Source: Candidatus Nitrosopelagicus sp. (GTDB taxonomy: Archaea; Thermoproteota; Nitrososphaeria; Nitrososphaerales; Nitrosopumilaceae). Taken from it: DNA of 55,453 bases. The notes under the pieces are model-generated. The model did no database searches and was not told the DNA's origin. It saw only the letters and a list, made by a program, of their open reading frames with translations. Of the stretch, positions 21,998 to 30,745 are shown one piece after another. The stretch lies in the NCBI GenBank assembly GCA_028345575.1, contig JAOMDR010000006.1, positions 1 to 55,453 of the forward strand, written 5' to 3'. The number at the start of each line of letters is the position of its first letter. Position 1 is the first letter of the stretch. The position numbers and the translations under genes are program-made.

Positions 21998-22066
21998 CGG
22001 GTCTAGTGGGACTCATGGCTGATTAGCCTGTGGGTCTCGGTAAAAGGGGGTCATTTTGGGCTTCTT
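21997..22066. repeat. Left boundary repeat: tRNA-Lys 3'-end copy 1 plus left-end sequence
   Basis: Bases 21997-22014 match the 3' end of tRNA-Lys(CTT) (acceptor and T-arm), as does 24170-24187. After a 14-nt spacer (22015-22028) that differs between the two copies, 22029-22066 is identical to 24202-24239 (38 nt). The second part includes the last codons of the CFI-box gene. GTGGGWCTC occurs twice in each copy, 24 nt apart. Confidence 0.85.
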
Positions 22067-24093
22067 TCAAATATCGATTTCTTTATGGAAATAATCAATA
22101 CTGCTGGCATTACAAAGTACATTCCGATGTTAAGTAGGATTATACTAATTCCGTATCCCAACATTTCTTCTTCAGTGTCAACCTCAACATAGTTGAGTAG
22201 TGTCAACGATGTTAGCATTGGTGTCAATGTTACTTTGACTGCTTCTTTGAAGACTGGATTTTCTCTTTCATAATCAGCAACTGCTGGTGAGAATGAGTAG
22301 TAGAATTGGTTGAATCCTGTCATGAATGCAGTTCCTGACTGTGTTGTCATTACTGTGTTATCTCTAATCTCTCTTAGGAATTGAACTTGTGGTGCCATCT
22401 CGGAACCAAATGCTGCAGTTGCAATTAGACAACCACCACCTTCTGAATTATTATTTTTTGGTGATTGTTCAACTTGTGATTCAAAGGAAAATGTATTTAC
22501 TGATTTTGTAAATTCAGGTTCAAATCTATCATATTCTGAAGATTCTGCCGAGTAGATGTAATAATATATCAATCCATCTTCAAACATCCATCCATGAAAA
22601 TCCATTTTTATCGGAAATAATTTTGTCAGACCTAAATTCATCAGTACGTCTGATTTAGCTTCTATATGAATTCCTCCAGGCATTTTTTCCATATTTGATG
22701 AAACAAGTTCACCTTGATGACCACTAGATCTCATCCCATCAAGAAATCCCTCCGCTATTGATTCTTTCGACAAATTATCATCACTAAGATTCCATGCTCT
22801 TTGTGAATCTACAATCATAACAACCATTGTAGGTGGATTATATTCTGCAATGGAATTTGTATATGTATAACGAACTATAGGTTGCATCATTCCTTTGATG
22901 GATCTTGTTTCTACTTCAACTTCATCCCATGATTCAAAATTTTCTATATTCCATCCTTTTGGCGGTGTAAATGAGAATCCATACTTTTCATTTACATAAT
23001 CGGATGATTCAGGATTTTTAGATTCTAAAATTGATTTTGTAATTTTTATGGAATTTACAATATTTACTATGTCTTTGTAAAATCTGCTGTTTTCATTTGT
23101 AGTTGATAAAATAGTCATTCCTTTATTGTCAATTGGATCATCCCACACCTTTGCAAATGCAATTGTTGAATAGACATATTGTGAATCAACATAGTCTAAC
23201 GTAAAGTAGATTTCAGTTGCATCTAATTCTCCAATATTTCCTTTTTGTGCTTTAACCAATTCCAAATTTTCACATATTCCTCCATCTATTTCAATACTCA
23301 TTTCATCACATCCTTCAGATAATGCTAAAAGAAAATTATTGGCGGTTTGTCTTGGTATATTGTGGTTATACGCAAGCTGAGTAAGTTTACTTTCTTTAAT
23401 AATTACGATTGAATCGCCATCATACGAAGCAAAACTAACAATGAATATTGCCTCCCCATCATCGTAATCCATCTCTTCAATTTCCCATGTGGAAGGAATG
23501 TCAATAGAGAATCCATACTTTTGATTTGTGTATGTGGTGTACTCAGAAATTCTCTGTTCTGGAATCCATAATGGAACAGTTCCATCGGAATTCATATTTG
23601 GATGAACATAATTTTTAGCCTCGAGCCATAAACGTTCAGAAGCAATTAACGAACGTTGAACTTTTGTAAGCGCTTGTTCAATTTCATTTAATGTGTCTTC
23701 AGCCTCAACACTGTAATTTTTGACTTGTACTGATGCAAAAATAAGCAAGCCGTCACTTTCAAACCAATAATTTTCTGCTTCAAAAAGATGATCCCAAGAT
23801 TTGGTAAATTTATCCGCTACAATATCTACGCCTGCACCAGCATTTCCGTGTTCATTTACCTGATCGTAAGTTAATTGATGTGTTTGTTCCATGATTCTTT
23901 TCTGTAATTCCTCATGCAAAAATTCTAATTCTGAAAATTTAGTTTTCAAATCTTCTGATGACATTCTCGGCATATTCTCCATCTCTGCTTTTCTAATCAC
24001 CTCTTTCCATTCTTCATCAGTTAGTCCTTCTACACTTGGTACCATTACTCCAATCATGGCAACTATCAGTATGGAAACAAAAATTATTTTCAT
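22051..24093 (-). CDS. Secreted CFI-box protein, 680 aa
   Basis: Signal peptide at 1-23 (IIFVSILIVAMIGVMVPSVEG), then an N-terminal helical region, two related beta-rich domains of the KYGFSFTPPKGWNIENF type (about 190-340 and 365-545), and at about 560-680 a C-terminal module starting GGGCLIATAAFGSEMAPQV, the conserved CFI-box-CTERM pattern, ending with a membrane helix and basic tail. Predicted at the cell surface. The same module is nearly repeated in the protein at 24632. The start codon and promoter lie within the 103-nt repeat 24086-24188. It fills unit 1 of the island. Confidence 0.82.
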   Translation of the reverse strand: MKIIFVSILIVAMIGVMVPSVEGLTDEEWKEVIRKAEMENMPRMSSEDLKTKFSELEFLHEELQKRIMEQTHQLTYDQVNEHGNAGAGVDIVADKFTKSWDHLFEAENYWFESDGLLIFASVQVKNYSVEAEDTLNEIEQALTKVQRSLIASERLWLEAKNYVHPNMNSDGTVPLWIPEQRISEYTTYTNQKYGFSIDIPSTWEIEEMDYDDGEAIFIVSFASYDGDSIVIIKESKLTQLAYNHNIPRQTANNFLLALSEGCDEMSIEIDGGICENLELVKAQKGNIGELDATEIYFTLDYVDSQYVYSTIAFAKVWDDPIDNKGMTILSTTNENSRFYKDIVNIVNSIKITKSILESKNPESSDYVNEKYGFSFTPPKGWNIENFESWDEVEVETRSIKGMMQPIVRYTYTNSIAEYNPPTMVVMIVDSQRAWNLSDDNLSKESIAEGFLDGMRSSGHQGELVSSNMEKMPGGIHIEAKSDVLMNLGLTKLFPIKMDFHGWMFEDGLIYYYIYSAESSEYDRFEPEFTKSVNTFSFESQVEQSPKNNNSEGGGCLIATAAFGSEMAPQVQFLREIRDNTVMTTQSGTAFMTGFNQFYYSFSPAVADYERENPVFKEAVKVTLTPMLTSLTLLNYVEVDTEEEMLGYGISIILLNIGMYFVMPAVLIISIKKSIFERSPK

Positions 24094-24188
24094 TAATCAT
24101 GTATCAATTACATAATGATAAAATTTTCTTTGATGTGAATTGGGGTCTAGTTACAGTATATGATCATAGGCGGGTCTAGTGGGACTCG
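24086..24188. repeat. Direct repeat A: tRNA-Lys 3' end plus flanking promoter sequence
   Basis: 103 nt matching 30540-30641 with one single-base indel and about four substitutions. The right 18-19 bases are the 3' end of tRNA-Lys (CGGGTCTAGTGGGACTCG against the intact CGGGTCTAGTGGGATTCG). The left part is the sequence just 3' of the tRNA, ending in ATGAAAAT on the minus strand, the start of the 680-residue gene. Confidence 0.92.
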
Positions 24189-24201
24189 TATTGAAAGCAA
24201 G

Positions 24202-24345
24202 TGTGGGTCTCGGTAAAAGGGGGTCATTTTGGGCTTCTTACAATATCATTTTCTTATAGAAATGACCAAAAATGCAGTTACAAAGCCATTCAATATTAAC
24301 AATATTACAAAAAATAAAATATTTTTTAATAACTCTTGTAACTAG
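24202..24345 (-). pseudogene. Left-end repeat and remnant of a third CFI-box C-terminus
   Basis: 24202-24239 is identical to 22029-22066. Beyond it, one minus-strand frame from about 24345 to a TGA near 24258 reads VILLILNGFVTAFLVISIRK, alignable with the end of the 680-residue protein (IILLNIGMYFV...LIISIKK). An in-frame stop lies just upstream and the CFI-box itself is absent, so only the terminal membrane helix survives. It overlaps the 5' part of the opposite-strand reading frame at 24272. Confidence 0.55.
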
Positions 24346-24349
24346 TAAT

Positions 24350-24643
24350 GTGGCACTTTGGAAAGCCTATCTCATTGGATTAGGGATATTCACTATTTTT
24401 GGTGCGATAATGGTATTTGTATTTCCTCTTTCATCAGAGATTGCAGAATTCCCTATGTATTATCTTGGAACTATTGTGGGTGAATATTTTTTGTATGGTT
24501 CCATGGCATTTGTAATCTATTGGGGTGTCAGTCGATTCATTGATAATAAAGGATTGGCAATAATTATAGCATTAATTCCTGTCATTATTCTAAGATTTGT
24601 AGTGTCTGCTGGGGCTATGCTTCCAACATTGCTACGACCTTAA
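24350..24643 (+). CDS. Small membrane protein, unknown (97 aa)
   Basis: Three hydrophobic segments (AYLIGLGIFTIFGAIMVFVF, YLGTIVGEYFLYGSMAFVIYW, LAIIIALIPVIILRFVVSAG). The start is proposed at GTG 24350 because the longer frame from ATG 24272 runs through the remnant on the other strand. Its 3' end overlaps the convergent CFI-box gene by 12 nt. Family unknown. In unit 2 of the island. Confidence 0.55.
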   Translation: MALWKAYLIGLGIFTIFGAIMVFVFPLSSEIAEFPMYYLGTIVGEYFLYGSMAFVIYWGVSRFIDNKGLAIIIALIPVIILRFVVSAGAMLPTLLRP

Positions 24644-25639
24644 AAAAAATCGTTTCTTTAAGGAATTAATTAATACTGCAGGTGCTACGAAATACATTCC
24701 GATGTTTAGTAGAATGATTCCAATACCATAACCTAACATTTCCTCTTCAGTGTCAACTTGTACATAGTTGAGTAGTGTTAGTGATGTTAACATTGGTGTT
24801 AGTGTTACCTTGATTATTTCTTTGAAGACTGGATTTTCTCGTTCATAATCTGCTACATATGGTGAAAATAAATAATAGAATTGGTTGAATGCTGTCATAA
24901 ATGAAGTTCCAGATTGTGTTTGGAGTACTGTGTTGTCTCTAATCTCTCTCAGTAATTGAACTTGTGGAGCCATTTCAGAACCAAATGCTGCAGTTGCAAT
25001 TAGACATCCACCTTTTTCGGCAGTACTTGTAGTACCGGTGTTTGAAAGAACATTTGTTTTTAAAGTATTTGCCATATGTCGATAAGCATCAGTATAGTAC
25101 AAATCCCCATAAGAATCACGTGACGAAGCAATCTGTTGAATAGATAATATATCATCATTCTGTACTCCAGTCAAACGCATATTGGTTGTTACATAATGAT
25201 CAAAATTTTCATAATGTCTTACAACTTTCACTCTAATATCCATGACAGCTGGACCCCCTTGTTGGGGAAAAGAAGAATTTCCATCTGATGAAATAACATC
25301 ACAATTTCTTTCTTTGTTACATGAATTTGTTAAGCTTAATTTCATAACATTAACCAGTTCTTCTGCTGTGAATCCCTTTATCTCACTTCCATCTAACACT
25401 ATCACATTGTATGAGACTCCTTCAAATTGATTAAACAAGTCCATATGTTGCTGCCACATTTTTTGAGACTCAACTAAAGCCACATTTTTCCAAATCAGTT
25501 TGTTAGGCGGATCACTAATTGGATGATTAACTACTTCGGGATATTCAAAGCTAAATCCGTAACGCGTATTTTTGTATATCTTGTAATCTTCTGCAAAAAC
25601 TTGAGGTAAAGTTGGTATCCCAATAGAGAGAATTAACAA
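24632..25639 (-). CDS. Secreted CFI-box protein, about 335 aa
   Basis: One beta-rich domain beginning YGFSFEYP (about 28-200), a linker, and the C-terminal CFI-box module GGCLIATAAFGSEMAPQVQ near 210, largely identical to that of the 680-residue protein, with a terminal membrane helix. The frame continues upstream of the TTG start as ACGAAAATC followed by hydrophobic codons, giving a full signal peptide if translation began there. The paralogue has ATGAAAAT at that place, so the original ATG seems mutated to ACG. Expression from TTG 25639 would leave a shortened signal. Confidence 0.72.
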   Translation of the reverse strand: MLILSIGIPTLPQVFAEDYKIYKNTRYGFSFEYPEVVNHPISDPPNKLIWKNVALVESQKMWQQHMDLFNQFEGVSYNVIVLDGSEIKGFTAEELVNVMKLSLTNSCNKERNCDVISSDGNSSFPQQGGPAVMDIRVKVVRHYENFDHYVTTNMRLTGVQNDDILSIQQIASSRDSYGDLYYTDAYRHMANTLKTNVLSNTGTTSTAEKGGCLIATAAFGSEMAPQVQLLREIRDNTVLQTQSGTSFMTAFNQFYYLFSPYVADYERENPVFKEIIKVTLTPMLTSLTLLNYVQVDTEEEMLGYGIGIILLNIGMYFVAPAVLINSLKKRFFLRS

Positions 25640-25816
25640 AAGTGAAAATATTATTATGATTTTCGTATGTTATTGTGGTAAAAGAAATTAATAAATTTTT
25701 AGGAATTTTGATTAGACTTTCGGATTTTGTGACTGCCGTAAAATTATAAAATTTTGATCATGTTTGTAATAACATAATGACCAATTTCTTTTTTAACAGA
25801 AAAAACAATCATTTCC

Positions 25817-26506
25817 GTGGATTTTAAAAACAAGAAATGGGATGAGCTTGAAAGGCTCAGGGATGAGGTCAATGAATTATCCAAGTCCAAAAACGTCGAT
25901 CATAAGATGATAAGAATGAAAACAAGATTAGAAAGAATAGTAGAGCTTGATCCTACAGATAAAATTGCATTATTTTGGTTGGGAGATTTTTGGTTCCAAT
26001 GCGAATTGTATGAAAAGGCGCTTGGTTACTTTGAGAAAACCATCAAGTTGGATGAAAATCATACGTATGCGTGGTTTTACAAAGGCATGATATTACTCGA
26101 GACTGAAAAATACAAAGACGCAATCAAAATCTTTGATAAAATAATGTTAATGGATGAGCCTCCAGATGAAACATGGTTTAACAAAGGTGTTGCATTACAT
26201 AATTTAGAAAAATACAAACAAGCGCTCGAGTGTTATGAACAATACCTCAAATACGATGAGAAAAACCAAAATGATCCTAAGGCTTTGATTTACAAATCAG
26301 AAGTATTACTAGAGTTGGGGAAAAATGATGATGCAATAATTTGTTATGATCGTGCCGTCAAACTTGACAGTTCTCTAAAAAAATACATGGAACGTCCAAA
26401 ACCAAAGATGGGATTAGGGAAACGTGCACTACGTCAGATAGGAATAGGAATTGCTTGTTGGGGAATGTTTCACGGCATTATTGTAGTAACACGTCTTATT
26501 TTATAG
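25817..26506 (+). CDS. Tail-anchored TPR protein (paralogue 1)
   Basis: 229 residues, start GTG 25817. N-terminal FKNKKWDELERL, then about four TPRs (LFWLGDFWFQCELYEKALGYFEKTIKLD and following, 50-190), and a single C-terminal hydrophobic helix (about 207-227) with nothing after it, predicting a tail-anchored cytosolic scaffold. Closely resembles the protein at 28033 in N-terminus, repeats (PPDE.W) and tail. Opposite strand to the rest of the cassette. Confidence 0.78.
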   Translation: MDFKNKKWDELERLRDEVNELSKSKNVDHKMIRMKTRLERIVELDPTDKIALFWLGDFWFQCELYEKALGYFEKTIKLDENHTYAWFYKGMILLETEKYKDAIKIFDKIMLMDEPPDETWFNKGVALHNLEKYKQALECYEQYLKYDEKNQNDPKALIYKSEVLLELGKNDDAIICYDRAVKLDSSLKKYMERPKPKMGLGKRALRQIGIGIACWGMFHGIIVVTRLIL

Positions 26507-26531
26507 ATTAGGTACCTGTTGATGACATTTA

Positions 26532-26783
26532 CTAGTAGTCATCTTCGTCATCATCAGAGCAACTAGAGTCTACCTCTGATTGCCAAATTTCATCTCTTCT
26601 ATCCTGAAGATGTTCAATTCGTTCTTCTAATTCAAATTCACGATTTTGTGCATCTTCATCATATGGATGTGCCTCAAGATGACCTCTGACATCTCTCAAT
26701 TCTCGATGGTTATTTTTTATTCTCTCTTTATTTAGATCAAGATCATCATTTTCATCATTAGAAAATCCATCAAAGAATCCCAT
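26532..26783 (-). CDS. Small acidic coiled-coil protein (83 aa)
   Basis: Seen: an N-terminal MGFFDGFSND, a long charged helix (about 18-72, ELEERIEHLQDRRDEIW) likely to form a coiled coil, and an acidic tail of Ser/Asp/Glu ending DDDEDDY. No family recognised. 49 nt downstream of the pentapeptide-repeat gene in the same direction, so possibly the last gene of that operon. Confidence 0.6.
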   Translation of the reverse strand: MGFFDGFSNDENDDLDLNKERIKNNHRELRDVRGHLEAHPYDEDAQNREFELEERIEHLQDRRDEIWQSEVDSSCSDDDEDDY

Positions 26784-26832
26784 GTTCGTGTATACTCATA
26801 CTAGAATAAAAAAATTCTATTGTATTGTTTCA

Positions 26833-27984
26833 TTAGATTCTTGCTCCTCTTCTCTTAAAATCCTCAAACTCCTCATCTGTAAGATTGTAATCATCTAATC
26901 GAAATAGGTCTGCGTTTAGCAAATTTGCTCCTCCAAAGTACACATTTGTCAGGAAAGCTTCGTTGATTGTTGCATTACGCAAATCTGCACCTTCAAAGTC
27001 AATTTGAGTCATAGATGCCCATGAAAAATCCGCACCAACCAGACTTGCATACGAAAAGTTGGCCCTAAACAGATTCGCATTTAGAAATACCGCACCATCT
27101 AACATAGCATTTGAAAAATCAGCTTTTCTAATATTTGCACCCTCAAAATCCGCTTGACGTAGTTTGGCTCCTCTAAAATCTGCACCTGTTAAATCTGCTC
27201 CAATGAAAATTGCCCCTCTACAATCTTTTTTTCGGAAATCAACGTTTGACAAATCCTGTCCGGTAAAGTCTTTTTCAACTAAATTCGTGGTTGCAAATAC
27301 TTTTTCTAACTTTTCATGATGGATGGGCTCGGTGAAGGAAAAATTATCGCTCAAAACCTCATGGTTTAACAAATTATTATTTGCACCACACTTTTCACAT
27401 TCCCAAATATCTTCAGTAGGACCAAAGGCCGGAAGATAATCTGCAATATCCAGTTCCTCATCATGACCGAATGTTTCAATCTCTTTTACAAACCCACATT
27501 CAGAACATACAACTTTTGTAATACCCCGACGATTTCCTGTTTCTGTAAATTTCTGTAAGTATTCATCAGCATCTACTGCTTCTGTAAACTCTTGTTTATT
27601 TTCACCCAAGTGTGCCTTCCATGAATCATCCCATGTGTAATAAATGTGAAATTCAGATATCTCCTTTTTGTCTTCATACCTTTCATTAACAATTCTTATT
27701 GTATTTTGAAGCAATTCTGCATACTCTTCAATTTCATAATACGGGATAAGATCACCAAGTACTTCATAGGGAGTTTCACAGCCCAAATTTTCCAAATATT
27801 TTTTGTTAGGAGAGGGAATCGTTCCTTTCTCTAAAGGCTCCATCAAATGTTTGATAAATCTGTCAGCCCAGTCTTTTGCGCGTTCATCGTCTGTAATATT
27901 GATATCATCATGAACTAAGACCTTCTTAACAAGAATATGCCATAAAAGATCCTCAAATTCTCCATCTTGGTATTTGTATGTCAT
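26833..27984 (-). CDS. Zinc-ribbon and pentapeptide-repeat protein
   Basis: 383 residues in three parts: an N-terminal helical domain (1-150) not recognised, a zinc ribbon with C160, C163, C196 and C199, and about 12-14 pentapeptide repeats (ADLTGADFRGAKLRQADFEGAN pattern, A(D/N)LXX) at about 232-365, forming a right-handed quadrilateral beta-helix. Pentapeptide proteins in bacteria include DNA mimics, but here the role is unknown. Same strand as the TPR, DUF6745-like and partner genes upstream (48-nt gap). Confidence 0.85.
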   Translation of the reverse strand: MTYKYQDGEFEDLLWHILVKKVLVHDDINITDDERAKDWADRFIKHLMEPLEKGTIPSPNKKYLENLGCETPYEVLGDLIPYYEIEEYAELLQNTIRIVNERYEDKKEISEFHIYYTWDDSWKAHLGENKQEFTEAVDADEYLQKFTETGNRRGITKVVCSECGFVKEIETFGHDEELDIADYLPAFGPTEDIWECEKCGANNNLLNHEVLSDNFSFTEPIHHEKLEKVFATTNLVEKDFTGQDLSNVDFRKKDCRGAIFIGADLTGADFRGAKLRQADFEGANIRKADFSNAMLDGAVFLNANLFRANFSYASLVGADFSWASMTQIDFEGADLRNATINEAFLTNVYFGGANLLNADLFRLDDYNLTDEEFEDFKRRGARI

Positions 27985-28032
27985 CTAACCTAGCATGATT
28001 TGTTTGTCTTAATCTTAAATTTTTCTAGATGA

Positions 28033-28695
28033 TTAGAAGAAAATTCTTATCACAAAACTTACCGCCACATATGCAATACCAAATGATAATCCAAAAATCC
28101 CCAAAGAGTGTAGAATCTTACTAAATGATTCTGAACTTTGAGAACCTTCTCCATAAACCACTTTTTGAAACTCTTTGACCTCTTTTTTTCTACCCAGCAA
28201 CTTCAAACATTCAATTTTTCTTTCCAAAACAGAAAAATCATTTTGGTTTTCAGGATCAAGACTCATGAAAAAGTCATAATCTTTTATTGCATCCTGATGT
28301 CTACCGAGCAATTCTAATACCCATCCTCTATCTAACCATAATTCATCTGGCGGTTCATGCATTCTTGAAATTTCATCATAACACTCAACCGCTTCTTCTA
28401 ATTCACCTAAACAAATCAAATTTTCTGCCTTTCCATACATTGCGCGCATGTTTTCGGGATTGATTAGTAAAACTTGCTCAAAGCATTCTACAGAAGCATC
28501 ACATTCACTCATATCGTATAATATCTCTCCCTTTCGAGCTAGTGCATATTGTTCATCTGGTTCTAATTGTAAAATTTTCTCCAAGATCCTAATTTTTTCT
28601 CTATTTCTCGATGGCACAATCTGCTGTTTATCCAAAGTGAGAAACTTTTCCTTTAACCTTTCCAATTCGTCCCATTTTTCATTCTTAAAACTCAT
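28033..28695 (-). CDS. Tail-anchored TPR protein (paralogue 2)
   Basis: 220 residues. Starts FKNEKWDELERL like its paralogue at 25817, has about four TPRs (EKILQLEPDEQYALARKGEIL onward) and ends in one hydrophobic helix (about 196-219) with no following residues. Starts 5 nt after the DUF6745-like gene stop, so translation is probably coupled. With its paralogue it could anchor a complex at the membrane. Partner unknown. Confidence 0.8.
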   Translation of the reverse strand: MSFKNEKWDELERLKEKFLTLDKQQIVPSRNREKIRILEKILQLEPDEQYALARKGEILYDMSECDASVECFEQVLLINPENMRAMYGKAENLICLGELEEAVECYDEISRMHEPPDELWLDRGWVLELLGRHQDAIKDYDFFMSLDPENQNDFSVLERKIECLKLLGRKKEVKEFQKVVYGEGSQSSESFSKILHSLGIFGLSFGIAYVAVSFVIRIFF

Positions 28696-28700
28696 CTTTA

Positions 28701-29561
28701 CTACGCCTCAATAGTCAACCTCGAGTATTCTTCTTCAGACAAGCCAAACTTCCATGCCATTGCTTGATCTGCTGATTTGATTCTTTGTTCATTATTGTCA
28801 ACCTCGGGTATTCCTGAAAAGTAAATTCGACCAGTTGATGGACAAGAATATTTCAAAACCAATCCAGTAAATTTTATTCCCTTCCACCACCATTCGGGTC
28901 TTGTTCCCAAGTCAATTTCGTACAATTCATTACCTCTAGAGGATCTATCAATGAGTTTCTTGTTTAGAGATGTCATCAAAAGTTCGATTCCGTAAATCTG
29001 TGTTGCAACTCTTCTCTGTTCAATGTTTGTTAGTTGAATTATAATTTCAGGAGGCATTGTTCTATTTACAATCTTCCAGAATTCTTTACTCTCAAATTTA
29101 ATCCCGTGGATACAATAGAATTTTTCTCTAGTCCATGAAACTGCTGCAGAATTGGTTGAATGTAGCCTAAATTCATCATCATGTCTTATTTTTGGAGTTT
29201 TTAATACGTGAATGCTATGACCAGTATCTACAAAATATGCCATAATTCCAGGAATAAATGTAATAACTTTTGCGAAACCAACATGAACAATTTCGGTCAT
29301 ATCGAGTATAGTTTCATAATCCATCTCACAATCCTCACGTTCAAAGTTATCATGCTTAATGAAAATGTCATCAGTGTAAAACGAATCTCTTTTCAAAACG
29401 TTGTCGTATGCTAATGAAAATACAGAGGGTTCAGTATGAAAAATAATGGAAAGATTCTGAAATTTAGAATTTAGCCACATTCTTATTTCTTTAATTTTGC
29501 GTTTTTCCTCTTTGTATTGTTCCAACATTTCATTACTTTTGTAGTATCGACCTGCAAACAT
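28701..29561 (-). CDS. DUF6745-like protein
   Basis: 286 residues from ATG 29561, which lies just after the stop of the small partner gene; a longer frame to 29639 overlaps that gene. Seen: LHSTNSAAVSW...FYCIHGIKF, then EIIIQLTNIEQRRVATQIYG, and the end CPSTGRIYFSGIPEV...AMAWKFGLSEEEY, which I recall as the conserved layout of the bacterial DUF6745 domain. Function unknown in the family. Forms an operon with the small HGD protein and TPR protein. Assignment is from memory of the pattern. Confidence 0.7.
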   Translation of the reverse strand: MFAGRYYKSNEMLEQYKEEKRKIKEIRMWLNSKFQNLSIIFHTEPSVFSLAYDNVLKRDSFYTDDIFIKHDNFEREDCEMDYETILDMTEIVHVGFAKVITFIPGIMAYFVDTGHSIHVLKTPKIRHDDEFRLHSTNSAAVSWTREKFYCIHGIKFESKEFWKIVNRTMPPEIIIQLTNIEQRRVATQIYGIELLMTSLNKKLIDRSSRGNELYEIDLGTRPEWWWKGIKFTGLVLKYSCPSTGRIYFSGIPEVDNNEQRIKSADQAMAWKFGLSEEEYSRLTIEA

Positions 29562-29565
29562 TTTG

Positions 29566-29862
29566 CTAGTCACGTACCTCCTGAAACACTTGTTCAAATA
29601 TGTCAAATTCCCTTTCTTGTACAAGCACATACATTCCAATTGGTATTTGGATGGTGTTGTGTTCTTCGTGGATAAGTTCTAGTTGTGACTTTGCATTGAC
29701 AAACTTTTGATCATTTTGAGAAAGAATCTCAAAATCCCCTTGTAGTCTATGCCTATGACCTGTTACTTCCCCTTCCTGGAGCGTATCAGTGTGTATTTTT
29801 TTTGCATTTTTTGGAAGAGTTGCGATTGTTTTCAGTAACAGATCGCCGTGCCTTAGCAGCAC
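29566..29862 (-). CDS. Small partner of the DUF6745-like protein (98 aa)
   Basis: Start GTG 29862. Seen: RHGDLLLKTI at the N-terminus, GEVTGHRHRL near 32-41 with clustered His, HEEHNTIQIP near 69 and a C-terminal EREFDIFEQV. This pattern (HGD, EGEVTGHxHR, HEEH...P.G.Y.V..QRE) is one I associate with short genes next to DUF6745 genes in bacteria. The several His suggest a metal site. Ends 4 nt before the DUF6745-like start. Confidence 0.65.
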   Translation of the reverse strand: MLLRHGDLLLKTIATLPKNAKKIHTDTLQEGEVTGHRHRLQGDFEILSQNDQKFVNAKSQLELIHEEHNTIQIPIGMYVLVQEREFDIFEQVFQEVRD

Positions 29863-29941
29863 AATACGCCCCTAGCAAATATTTGTAGGTGAAACATGCG
29901 AAATACAACTACCAAATTCGTATTTATACTCAATGTTTTTT

Positions 29942-30547
29942 TCAAAGAATTCTCTTCAATTCATCCTTTCTTTGACGTAAAATCAACTCTGTGATTGAGG
30001 ACAAAAAAGCTATTTCTTTTTGTGTTCGTTTTACATTTTTTTCTTTACATGCTAAATACACTGCAGCAGCTGCTAATCCATTAGGATTTTTTCCAAATCT
30101 CTTTTTTGATTTTTTTGCTTTATTCAAAATTTTATGTGATGCACGGGAGACTAATTCTGTTTTAATTGGTGATAGATTAAGTCCATAAATGATTTTACTA
30201 ATTTTTTGTGCAGGATCAGGAATGCCAGGTTTTATCTCAATCTCAGAAAGAATCATTCGATACGATCTTTGAATATCTGTTTTTTTTTCATTAGATGCTT
30301 TTGCCAATTCATTTAGAGTTCTTGACGTGACAGGGGATCTTCTTATTGCAGCATAGATGCAGGCAATCATCATTTTTTTTGTGGATTTAGAAGGGATATT
30401 GTGTTTGATAACTTTTTTGTAAATCCAAATTGCATCATCTGTGATTACTTTAGGTAAACTCATTTTATTTGTAAGATCTTTAATTATTATGGTGCCTTTT
30501 GGGAGGTATCTATTGCCTGGTGCTTTGATTATTTTGTCGATTTTCAT
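29942..30547 (-). CDS. Transcription factor B lacking its N-terminal zinc ribbon
   Basis: 201 residues. Two cyclin folds typical of TFB: about 30-105 (LPKVITDDAIWIYKKV...GVAA-like IACIYAAIRR) and 112-201 (NPNGLAAAAVYLACKEKN is the signature of the second repeat). Normal archaeal TFB is about 300 residues with a zinc ribbon and B-finger in front; here only about 25 residues precede the first cyclin fold. The start codon lies in direct repeat B. Without the ribbon it should bind TBP and DNA but not recruit RNA polymerase normally; an anti-activator role is inference. Confidence 0.85.
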   Translation of the reverse strand: MKIDKIIKAPGNRYLPKGTIIIKDLTNKMSLPKVITDDAIWIYKKVIKHNIPSKSTKKMMIACIYAAIRRSPVTSRTLNELAKASNEKKTDIQRSYRMILSEIEIKPGIPDPAQKISKIIYGLNLSPIKTELVSRASHKILNKAKKSKKRFGKNPNGLAAAAVYLACKEKNVKRTQKEIAFLSSITELILRQRKDELKRIL

Positions 30548-30641
30548 TAATCATGTATCAATTACATAATGATAAAATTTTCTTTGTGTGAATTGGGGTC
30601 TAGTTATAGTATATGATCATAAACGGGTCTAGTGGGATTCG
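30540..30641. repeat. Direct repeat B: end of tRNA-Lys gene plus flanking promoter sequence
   Basis: 102 nt matching repeat A (24086-24188). It covers the 3' 18 bases of the intact tRNA-Lys(CTT) gene and the following 80 or so bases up to and including the TFB start codon. Confidence 0.92.
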
Positions 30642-30697
30642 AACCCACGACAACCGGATTAAGAGTCCGGTGCGCTACCTGGCTGCGCCATAGACCC
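30624..30697 (-). tRNA. tRNA-Lys(CTT)
   Basis: Minus-strand cloverleaf: acceptor GGGTCTA/TAGACCC, anticodon stem CCGGA/TCCGG with loop CTCTTAA (anticodon CTT), T-arm GTGGG/CCCAC with loop TTCGAAT, discriminator G73, CCA not encoded. Its 3' end is repeated at 24170 and 21997, marking it as the integration target of the island. Confidence 0.95.
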
Positions 30698-30745
30698 ACA
30701 CAAAGATATGAAAAAATGATGTTATTATTTAAACTTGGGATATGA

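Follow-up and report, generated by a model that had tools for sequence, protein, structure and literature searches.

The window, i.e., the entire stretch of 55,453 nucleotides of the Candidatus Nitrosopelagicus sp. contig that was analyzed, carries an island at 22,015-30,623 that is inserted in a tRNA-Lys gene with a 17-bp repeat and encompasses a leftward run of five genes, further open reading frames and a set of repeated end sequences. These features, given in the order in which they follow from the tRNA gene towards the opposite island end, are:

30623..30698, minus strand: tRNA-Lys(CTT), the target gene
30624..30640, minus strand: att copy 1 at the tRNA 3' end, a 17-bp overlap with the empty site
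30539..30641, minus strand: left terminal repeat of element 1, identical to 24086-24188 in 98 of 103 columns
29942..30547, minus strand: gene for a TFIIB-like protein (TFB), left end of element 1
29921..29928, minus strand: archaeal TATA-like box TATAAATA, about 60 nt upstream of the HGD start codon, as read from the sequence
29566..29862, minus strand: HGD protein, 98 aa, all-beta by its model, phrog_27831
28701..29561, minus strand: DUF6745-like protein, 286 aa, with a conserved C-terminal core and a divergent N-terminus
28033..28695, minus strand: TPR protein, 5 nt after the DUF6745-like gene, with a tail-anchor-like C-terminal hydrophobic tail
26833..27984, minus strand: pentapeptide-repeat protein, two CxxC motifs and then a C-terminal pentapeptide-repeat domain, after a 48-nt gap
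26532..26783, minus strand: acidic protein, 83 aa, net charge -19, after a 49-nt gap
25817..26506, plus strand: TPR paralogue of 28033-28695, with a C-terminal hydrophobic tail
24632..25639, minus strand: CFI-box-CTERM domain protein, cargo of element 1
24272..24643, plus strand: small ORF for a hydrophobic product, right end of element 1
24202..24225, minus strand: right-end motif GACCCCCTTTTACCGAGACCCACA of element 1
24172..24188, minus strand: att copy 2, internal, at the boundary of elements 1 and 2
24086..24188, minus strand: left terminal repeat of element 2
22051..24093, minus strand: CFI-box-CTERM protein, 680 aa, the sole gene of element 2, starting within the shared leader
22029..22052, minus strand: right-end motif of element 2, identical to that of element 1
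21998..22014, minus strand: att copy 3, at the right island end

A preliminary description of this DNA had reported five minus-strand open reading frames at 26532-29862, separated by gaps of 4, 5, 48 and 49 nt, and a TPR paralogue on the opposite strand, and both readings hold, provided that the DUF6745-like gene is begun at the ATG at 29561 (which has GGAGG upstream and matches the 4-nt gap to the HGD gene) rather than at the TTG at 29639 proposed by the ORF finder, which makes it too long. The HGD gene itself has a GTG start with an AGGGG motif before it, and the TATA-like box is likely the promoter of the HGD, DUF6745-like and TPR genes, which, being tightly packed behind it, would constitute one transcription unit; the more loosely spaced pentapeptide and acidic genes may have starts of their own (scans for sigma-70 promoters and terminators being of no informative value in archaea). 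The two TPR proteins are 33% identical over 171 aa, with the hydrophobic C-terminal segment of the minus-strand one starting at residue 198. The pentapeptide repeats were recovered by the family scan at E 2e-44, the N-terminal part of the same protein is without relatives in the family genomes, and no family match was returned for the acidic protein by the family scans.

That the island is an insertion is proven by the empty sites of nine relatives, in which 22014 abuts approximately 30624, the flanks are up to 99% identical and the 17 bp of the tRNA-Lys 3' end are common to the closest relatives. The tRNA-Lys island mentioned in the preliminary description is, hence, a real mobile one, bigger than the cassette reported from it, and composite: as the 103-bp left end is repeated, the right-end motif recurs identically and a third att copy is present, two elements stand in tandem. 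Element 1 (24172-30623; 6.45 kb) comprises the TFB gene, the HGD-DUF6745 pair, the TPR, pentapeptide and acidic genes, the second TPR gene, a gene for a CFI-box protein and the small hydrophobic ORF, and element 2 (21998-24171; 2.2 kb) a single CFI-box protein gene. Since a CFI-box-CTERM protein is encoded by both, elements of this family may carry surface-type proteins as a standard part of their cargo. Family scans revealed no integrase among the island ORFs of either element, and no replication gene was found on the island, a point against the replication role proposed for the pair below.

As for the identity of the paired proteins, the window DUF6745-like protein matches PF20530 at E 3e-5 with 23.7 bits, which is about 3 bits under the gathering cut-off of 27 and is the reason for it being named DUF6745-like here; the profile assignment that had been proposed for it thus fell short of the curated Pfam threshold, and its core was confirmed by iterated profiles. 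Searches iterated from the window protein reach relatives at E values down to 1e-80, a core profile recovers the window protein and aligns along its C-terminal core, and the homology of this core to DUF6745 is, by these iterated searches, beyond doubt. The structure model of the protein folds well only from approximately residue 120 on, and a fold search with it against the PDB gave no match. DUF6745 N-termini vary, being LRR-like in Deinococcus, hydrophobic in three of the genomes (G072, G116 and G038) and made up of a tetrapeptide array in phages.

These arrays deserve a description of their own. In 22 of the 54 viral DUF6745 ORFs (the loci include L113 6182-6402, L143 7551-7870, L144 and L169 7300-8619), x-[SAQ]-V-x tetrapeptides, up to 38 units of them, are encoded by an in-frame 12-bp tandem array, inside which many viral contigs terminate and which the window protein does not have; the L143 and L144 proteins (403 and 415 aa, respectively) are identical apart from it. 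A literature search on tetrapeptide repeats in phages returned nothing useful. On another viral contig (L112, 2500-3300), the N-terminal part of the DUF6745 protein includes a low-complexity run composed of G, Y, N and D (GYGNGYGDG...), and its gene adjoins a second HGD gene.

Across 99 HGD sequences from bacteria and archaea, G6, D7, G31, T34, H36, H38, H65 and H68 are invariant, and the invariant histidine set suggests a metal, the four-histidine site (HxH...HxEH; H36, H38, H65 and H68) being probably metal-binding. The HGD structure model is confident (pLDDT 92) and all-beta, and a fold search with it against the PDB, too, gave no match; in a viral fold library it matched a Caudovirales protein that is uncharacterised and, less strongly, proteins from the rudiviruses ARV2 and SIRV1, the latter two matches being no more than suggestive (TM by query length, 0.59 and 0.44, respectively). 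Sequence-profile matches to the PDB were dismissed as chance. PHROGs lists HGD (phrog_27831) and DUF6745 (phrog_31813) as families of unknown function, and a literature search found no paper naming DUF6745.

The HGD gene is present in 7 of the 200 family genomes, six of which have a DUF6745 match as well, the seventh copy lying on a phage-like contig whose end cuts the adjoining DUF6745-type gene; HGD was also found in six further Thermoproteota genomes. In other Thermoproteota (L191-L196), a gene of 313-319 aa follows HGD, and its C-terminus appears DUF6745-like by eye, a resemblance to which the profile comparison gave only 3-7% probability. Collection scans, for which a four-row HGD alignment served as the query (a nine-row one being too divergent), returned the pair, in what was a narrow scan, at no fewer than 230 genome loci and on no fewer than 206 viral contigs, yet the pair has neither an assigned function nor a solved relative. 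The best 80 of the 230 genome loci are mostly from cyanobacteria, Obscuribacterales, Herpetosiphon, Planctomycetes and Verrucomicrobia. Among the loci kept, the core profile detected DUF6745 in 66 of 80 genome loci and 51 of 80 viral ones, and 25 of the 29 viral loci without a match have a contig end within 1.5 kb downstream. Matches in Arthrobacter phages were discarded as spurious (they are antisense to an annotated primase and contain stops).

HGD and DUF6745 genes are adjacent (less than 300 bp apart) in 69 cellular and 46 viral loci, 115 in all, which supports the earlier proposal of a DUF6745-like protein with a small partner. Their order is free, with HGD first in 58 and DUF6745 first in 11 of the cellular loci, and in 28 and 18 of the viral ones, respectively. 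The HGD and DUF6745-core similarity matrices correlate at r 0.62 over 74 non-redundant pairs (the best of 2000 shuffles reached 0.20), an agreement that would also arise from co-transfer alone. HGD-DUF6745 is a real conserved two-gene module of viruses, plasmids and bacterial chromosomes. When both members of the pair are joined for tree building, the window copy falls in with five copies from Nitrosopumilaceae (support 0.91); L111 and L136, both viral contigs, and a further two archaeal copies come next (0.99), and all of these lie within a virus-rich group. The remark that the pair is known from bacteria was correct, as it is found on bacterial chromosomes and plasmids, whereas a transfer directly from bacteria finds no support in this grouping, which does not place the window copy with the bacterial ones.

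What, then, does the pair do? Its neighbors in viruses are genes for terminase large subunits, DnaB helicases, primases, RecT, RecE and Erf; in Microcystis phage Ma-LMM01, the pair gp175-gp174 has DNA polymerase, exonuclease and dUTPase genes on one side and a uracil-DNA glycosylase gene on the other, and a provirus-like contig end of Nitrosopumilus limneticus (L036/L015, 1400-9486) carries the pair together with a terminase large subunit gene (phrog_675, E 5e-30). The latter locus also has a TPR protein gene and broken UvrD-like ORFs. The viral position suggests an accessory of DNA replication or recombination, and, because neither protein has a PDB fold match, it is from the gene neighborhood that this biochemical role is read. 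Placement on viruses, plasmids and proviruses beside early replication and recombination genes would also suit a counter-defence module shielding the DNA or the replication complex of the element, for which the length-variable tetrapeptide arrays of phage DUF6745 could be a surface under changing selection. The pair, however, is also found beside STM401x genes on bacterial chromosomes and plasmids, and HGD holds eight invariant residues across bacteria and archaea, whereas anti-defence proteins are expected to be less constrained, and we consider such a shielding role rather unlikely.

A defence-type system had been hinted at before. An anti-virus defence that consists of the pair by itself, or of the pair plus the three genes that follow it, as a scaffold-anchored sensor with an unknown effector, would be in keeping with accessory cargo on a variable tRNA island, with the tail-anchored TPR gene following the pair at 5 nt and with the patchy presence of the pair in the family. 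PADLOC, however, gave no convincing match for the island proteins and no family for the pair or its recurrent neighbors; no defence family recurs at the bacterial pair loci (any one model accounts for at most 2 of 136 neighbors), and the pair has no conserved association with a nuclease, an NTPase or a membrane-pore effector. The archaeal pair neighborhoods hold only 2 TPR genes among 67 neighbors, and no pentapeptide family is among those listed, which answers the proposed co-occurrence check in the negative. Pentapeptide and TPR searches do match most family genomes, essentially only over generic repeats, and the TPR genes at two other archaeal loci, against about 0.5 expected from some ten TPR genes per genome, are no clear excess. 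With no recurrent association of the pair with the TPR, pentapeptide or acidic gene, or with any defence partner, the suggested five-gene system finds no support, these three genes being local cargo and not part of a recurring unit. Since many viruses carry the module themselves, within the replication region, and no defence family recurs beside it, a defence role is distinctly improbable.

In Deinococcus and Methylobacterium plasmids, the pair adjoins STM4011-STM4015, a neighborhood seen in only about 8-11 loci of the set, including bacterial chromosomes, for which it suggests another role (a literature search on STM401x returned nothing useful). A protein-modification or metal-handling factor tied to this radical-SAM cluster, which mobile elements have taken up as a metabolic gene, would fit both the direct neighborhood, seen in Deinococcus and Methylobacterium and at several further bacterial loci, and the LRR-like DUF6745 N-terminus there; with the cluster being absent from the window, not seen in any archaeal or viral locus and confined to so few loci of the set, this seems very unlikely. 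A toxin-antitoxin maintaining the element, as two adjacent genes with a 4-nt gap on mobile elements might lead one to think, is hardly credible given the free gene order, the place of the pair inside a cyanophage replication gene run, the large and N-terminally variable DUF6745 proteins and the lack of any toxin-antitoxin family match in the family scans.

How the host element moves is a separate matter, on which its ends are informative. The end pattern CTAGACCC-N19-AACTAGACCCCAATTCA occurs, among the 200 family genomes, only in the two island elements and at one site in a congener (G144), where it lies at tRNA-Lys(TTT), directly before a 454-aa integrase-like gene that is followed by a primpol-helicase gene. 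AACTAGACCCCAATTCA is without differences across all three ends, and the 20 bases TAACTAGACCCCAATTCACA are equally distant from the att core in G144 and element 1. Tyrosine-recombinase boxes (R, FR and Y) can be discerned by eye in the 454-aa gene, its integrase call being a motif reading only, and its product has no match in Pfam, the PDB or PHROGs. The G144 locus (contig C7, 9876-16000) has the appearance of an autonomous element in tRNA-Lys(TTT), with integrase-like and primpol-D5 helicase genes. We infer that the island elements are satellite-type ones, moved in trans. In the genome that harbors the island, which is 86% complete, no helper was detected at this site; elsewhere, that genome has two similar integrase-type genes in alike surroundings (C13:3332-4303 and C9:27304-28071), 25-28% identical to the G144 integrase, which are possible alternative helpers.

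The reading that we favor, tentatively and at somewhat less than even confidence when taken as a whole, is that of a replication or recombination accessory of mobile elements. The linkage in 115 loci, the correlated similarity and the free gene order argue for the two proteins most likely forming one complex, in which HGD would act with the C-terminal DUF6745 core, and the exchangeable DUF6745 N-terminus (LRR-like, tetrapeptide-repeat array or hydrophobic) would place or aim it. In viruses, the pair would belong, as an accessory, to the region of replication, recombination and packaging genes, and take part in replicating or recombining the DNA of the element itself rather than in host defence. 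Here, it would be cargo of the 6.45-kb integrase-less satellite-type element, which, along with its 2.2-kb sister, would have been inserted successively into the tRNA-Lys 3' end, the integrase of the autonomous integrase-plus-primpol element, or one alike, acting in trans. A wider generalization is doubtful, albeit worth stating: HGD-DUF6745 may be an unrecognised two-protein machine of bacterial and archaeal viruses and plasmids, built from two folds not in the PDB, whose DUF6745 part varies in phages via the 12-bp tandem array, and which is spread in marine archaea on integrase-less satellites borrowing a helper integrase. Its place in viral replication regions, the invariance of four histidines in its partner and the free order of the genes make a testable complex out of a domain to which no function is assigned, and the tandem integrase-less tRNA-Lys elements offer a clean example of how satellite-type elements spread among ammonia-oxidising archaea, for which empty sites, boundaries and a candidate helper can all be named.

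Compared with known systems, Ma-LMM01 gp175-gp174 is the same gene pair in the same order as in the window, but it lies inside a phage replication gene run and is without the TPR, pentapeptide and acidic genes. Other DUF6745 proteins (PF20530; phrog_31813) have the C-terminal core and the adjacent HGD partner in common with the window protein, which, unlike them, is without the LRR-like and tetrapeptide N-termini. Thaumarchaeal att sites have a median length of 17 bp, and an integrase is part of what defines the cryptic integrated elements of these archaea (Krupovic et al. 2019; PMC6563490). The window elements resemble such cryptic elements in being small, in having integrated at the 3' end of a tRNA gene with a direct repeat that is short (here 17 bp) and in carrying unknown genes as cargo, and differ from them in having no integrase, in standing in tandem and in having their ends in common with an autonomous element elsewhere. 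Satellites and mobilisable islands that borrow the integrase of a helper are known, and it is these that the window elements are alike to in possessing the att site and end sequence of a helper-like element and no integrase of their own.
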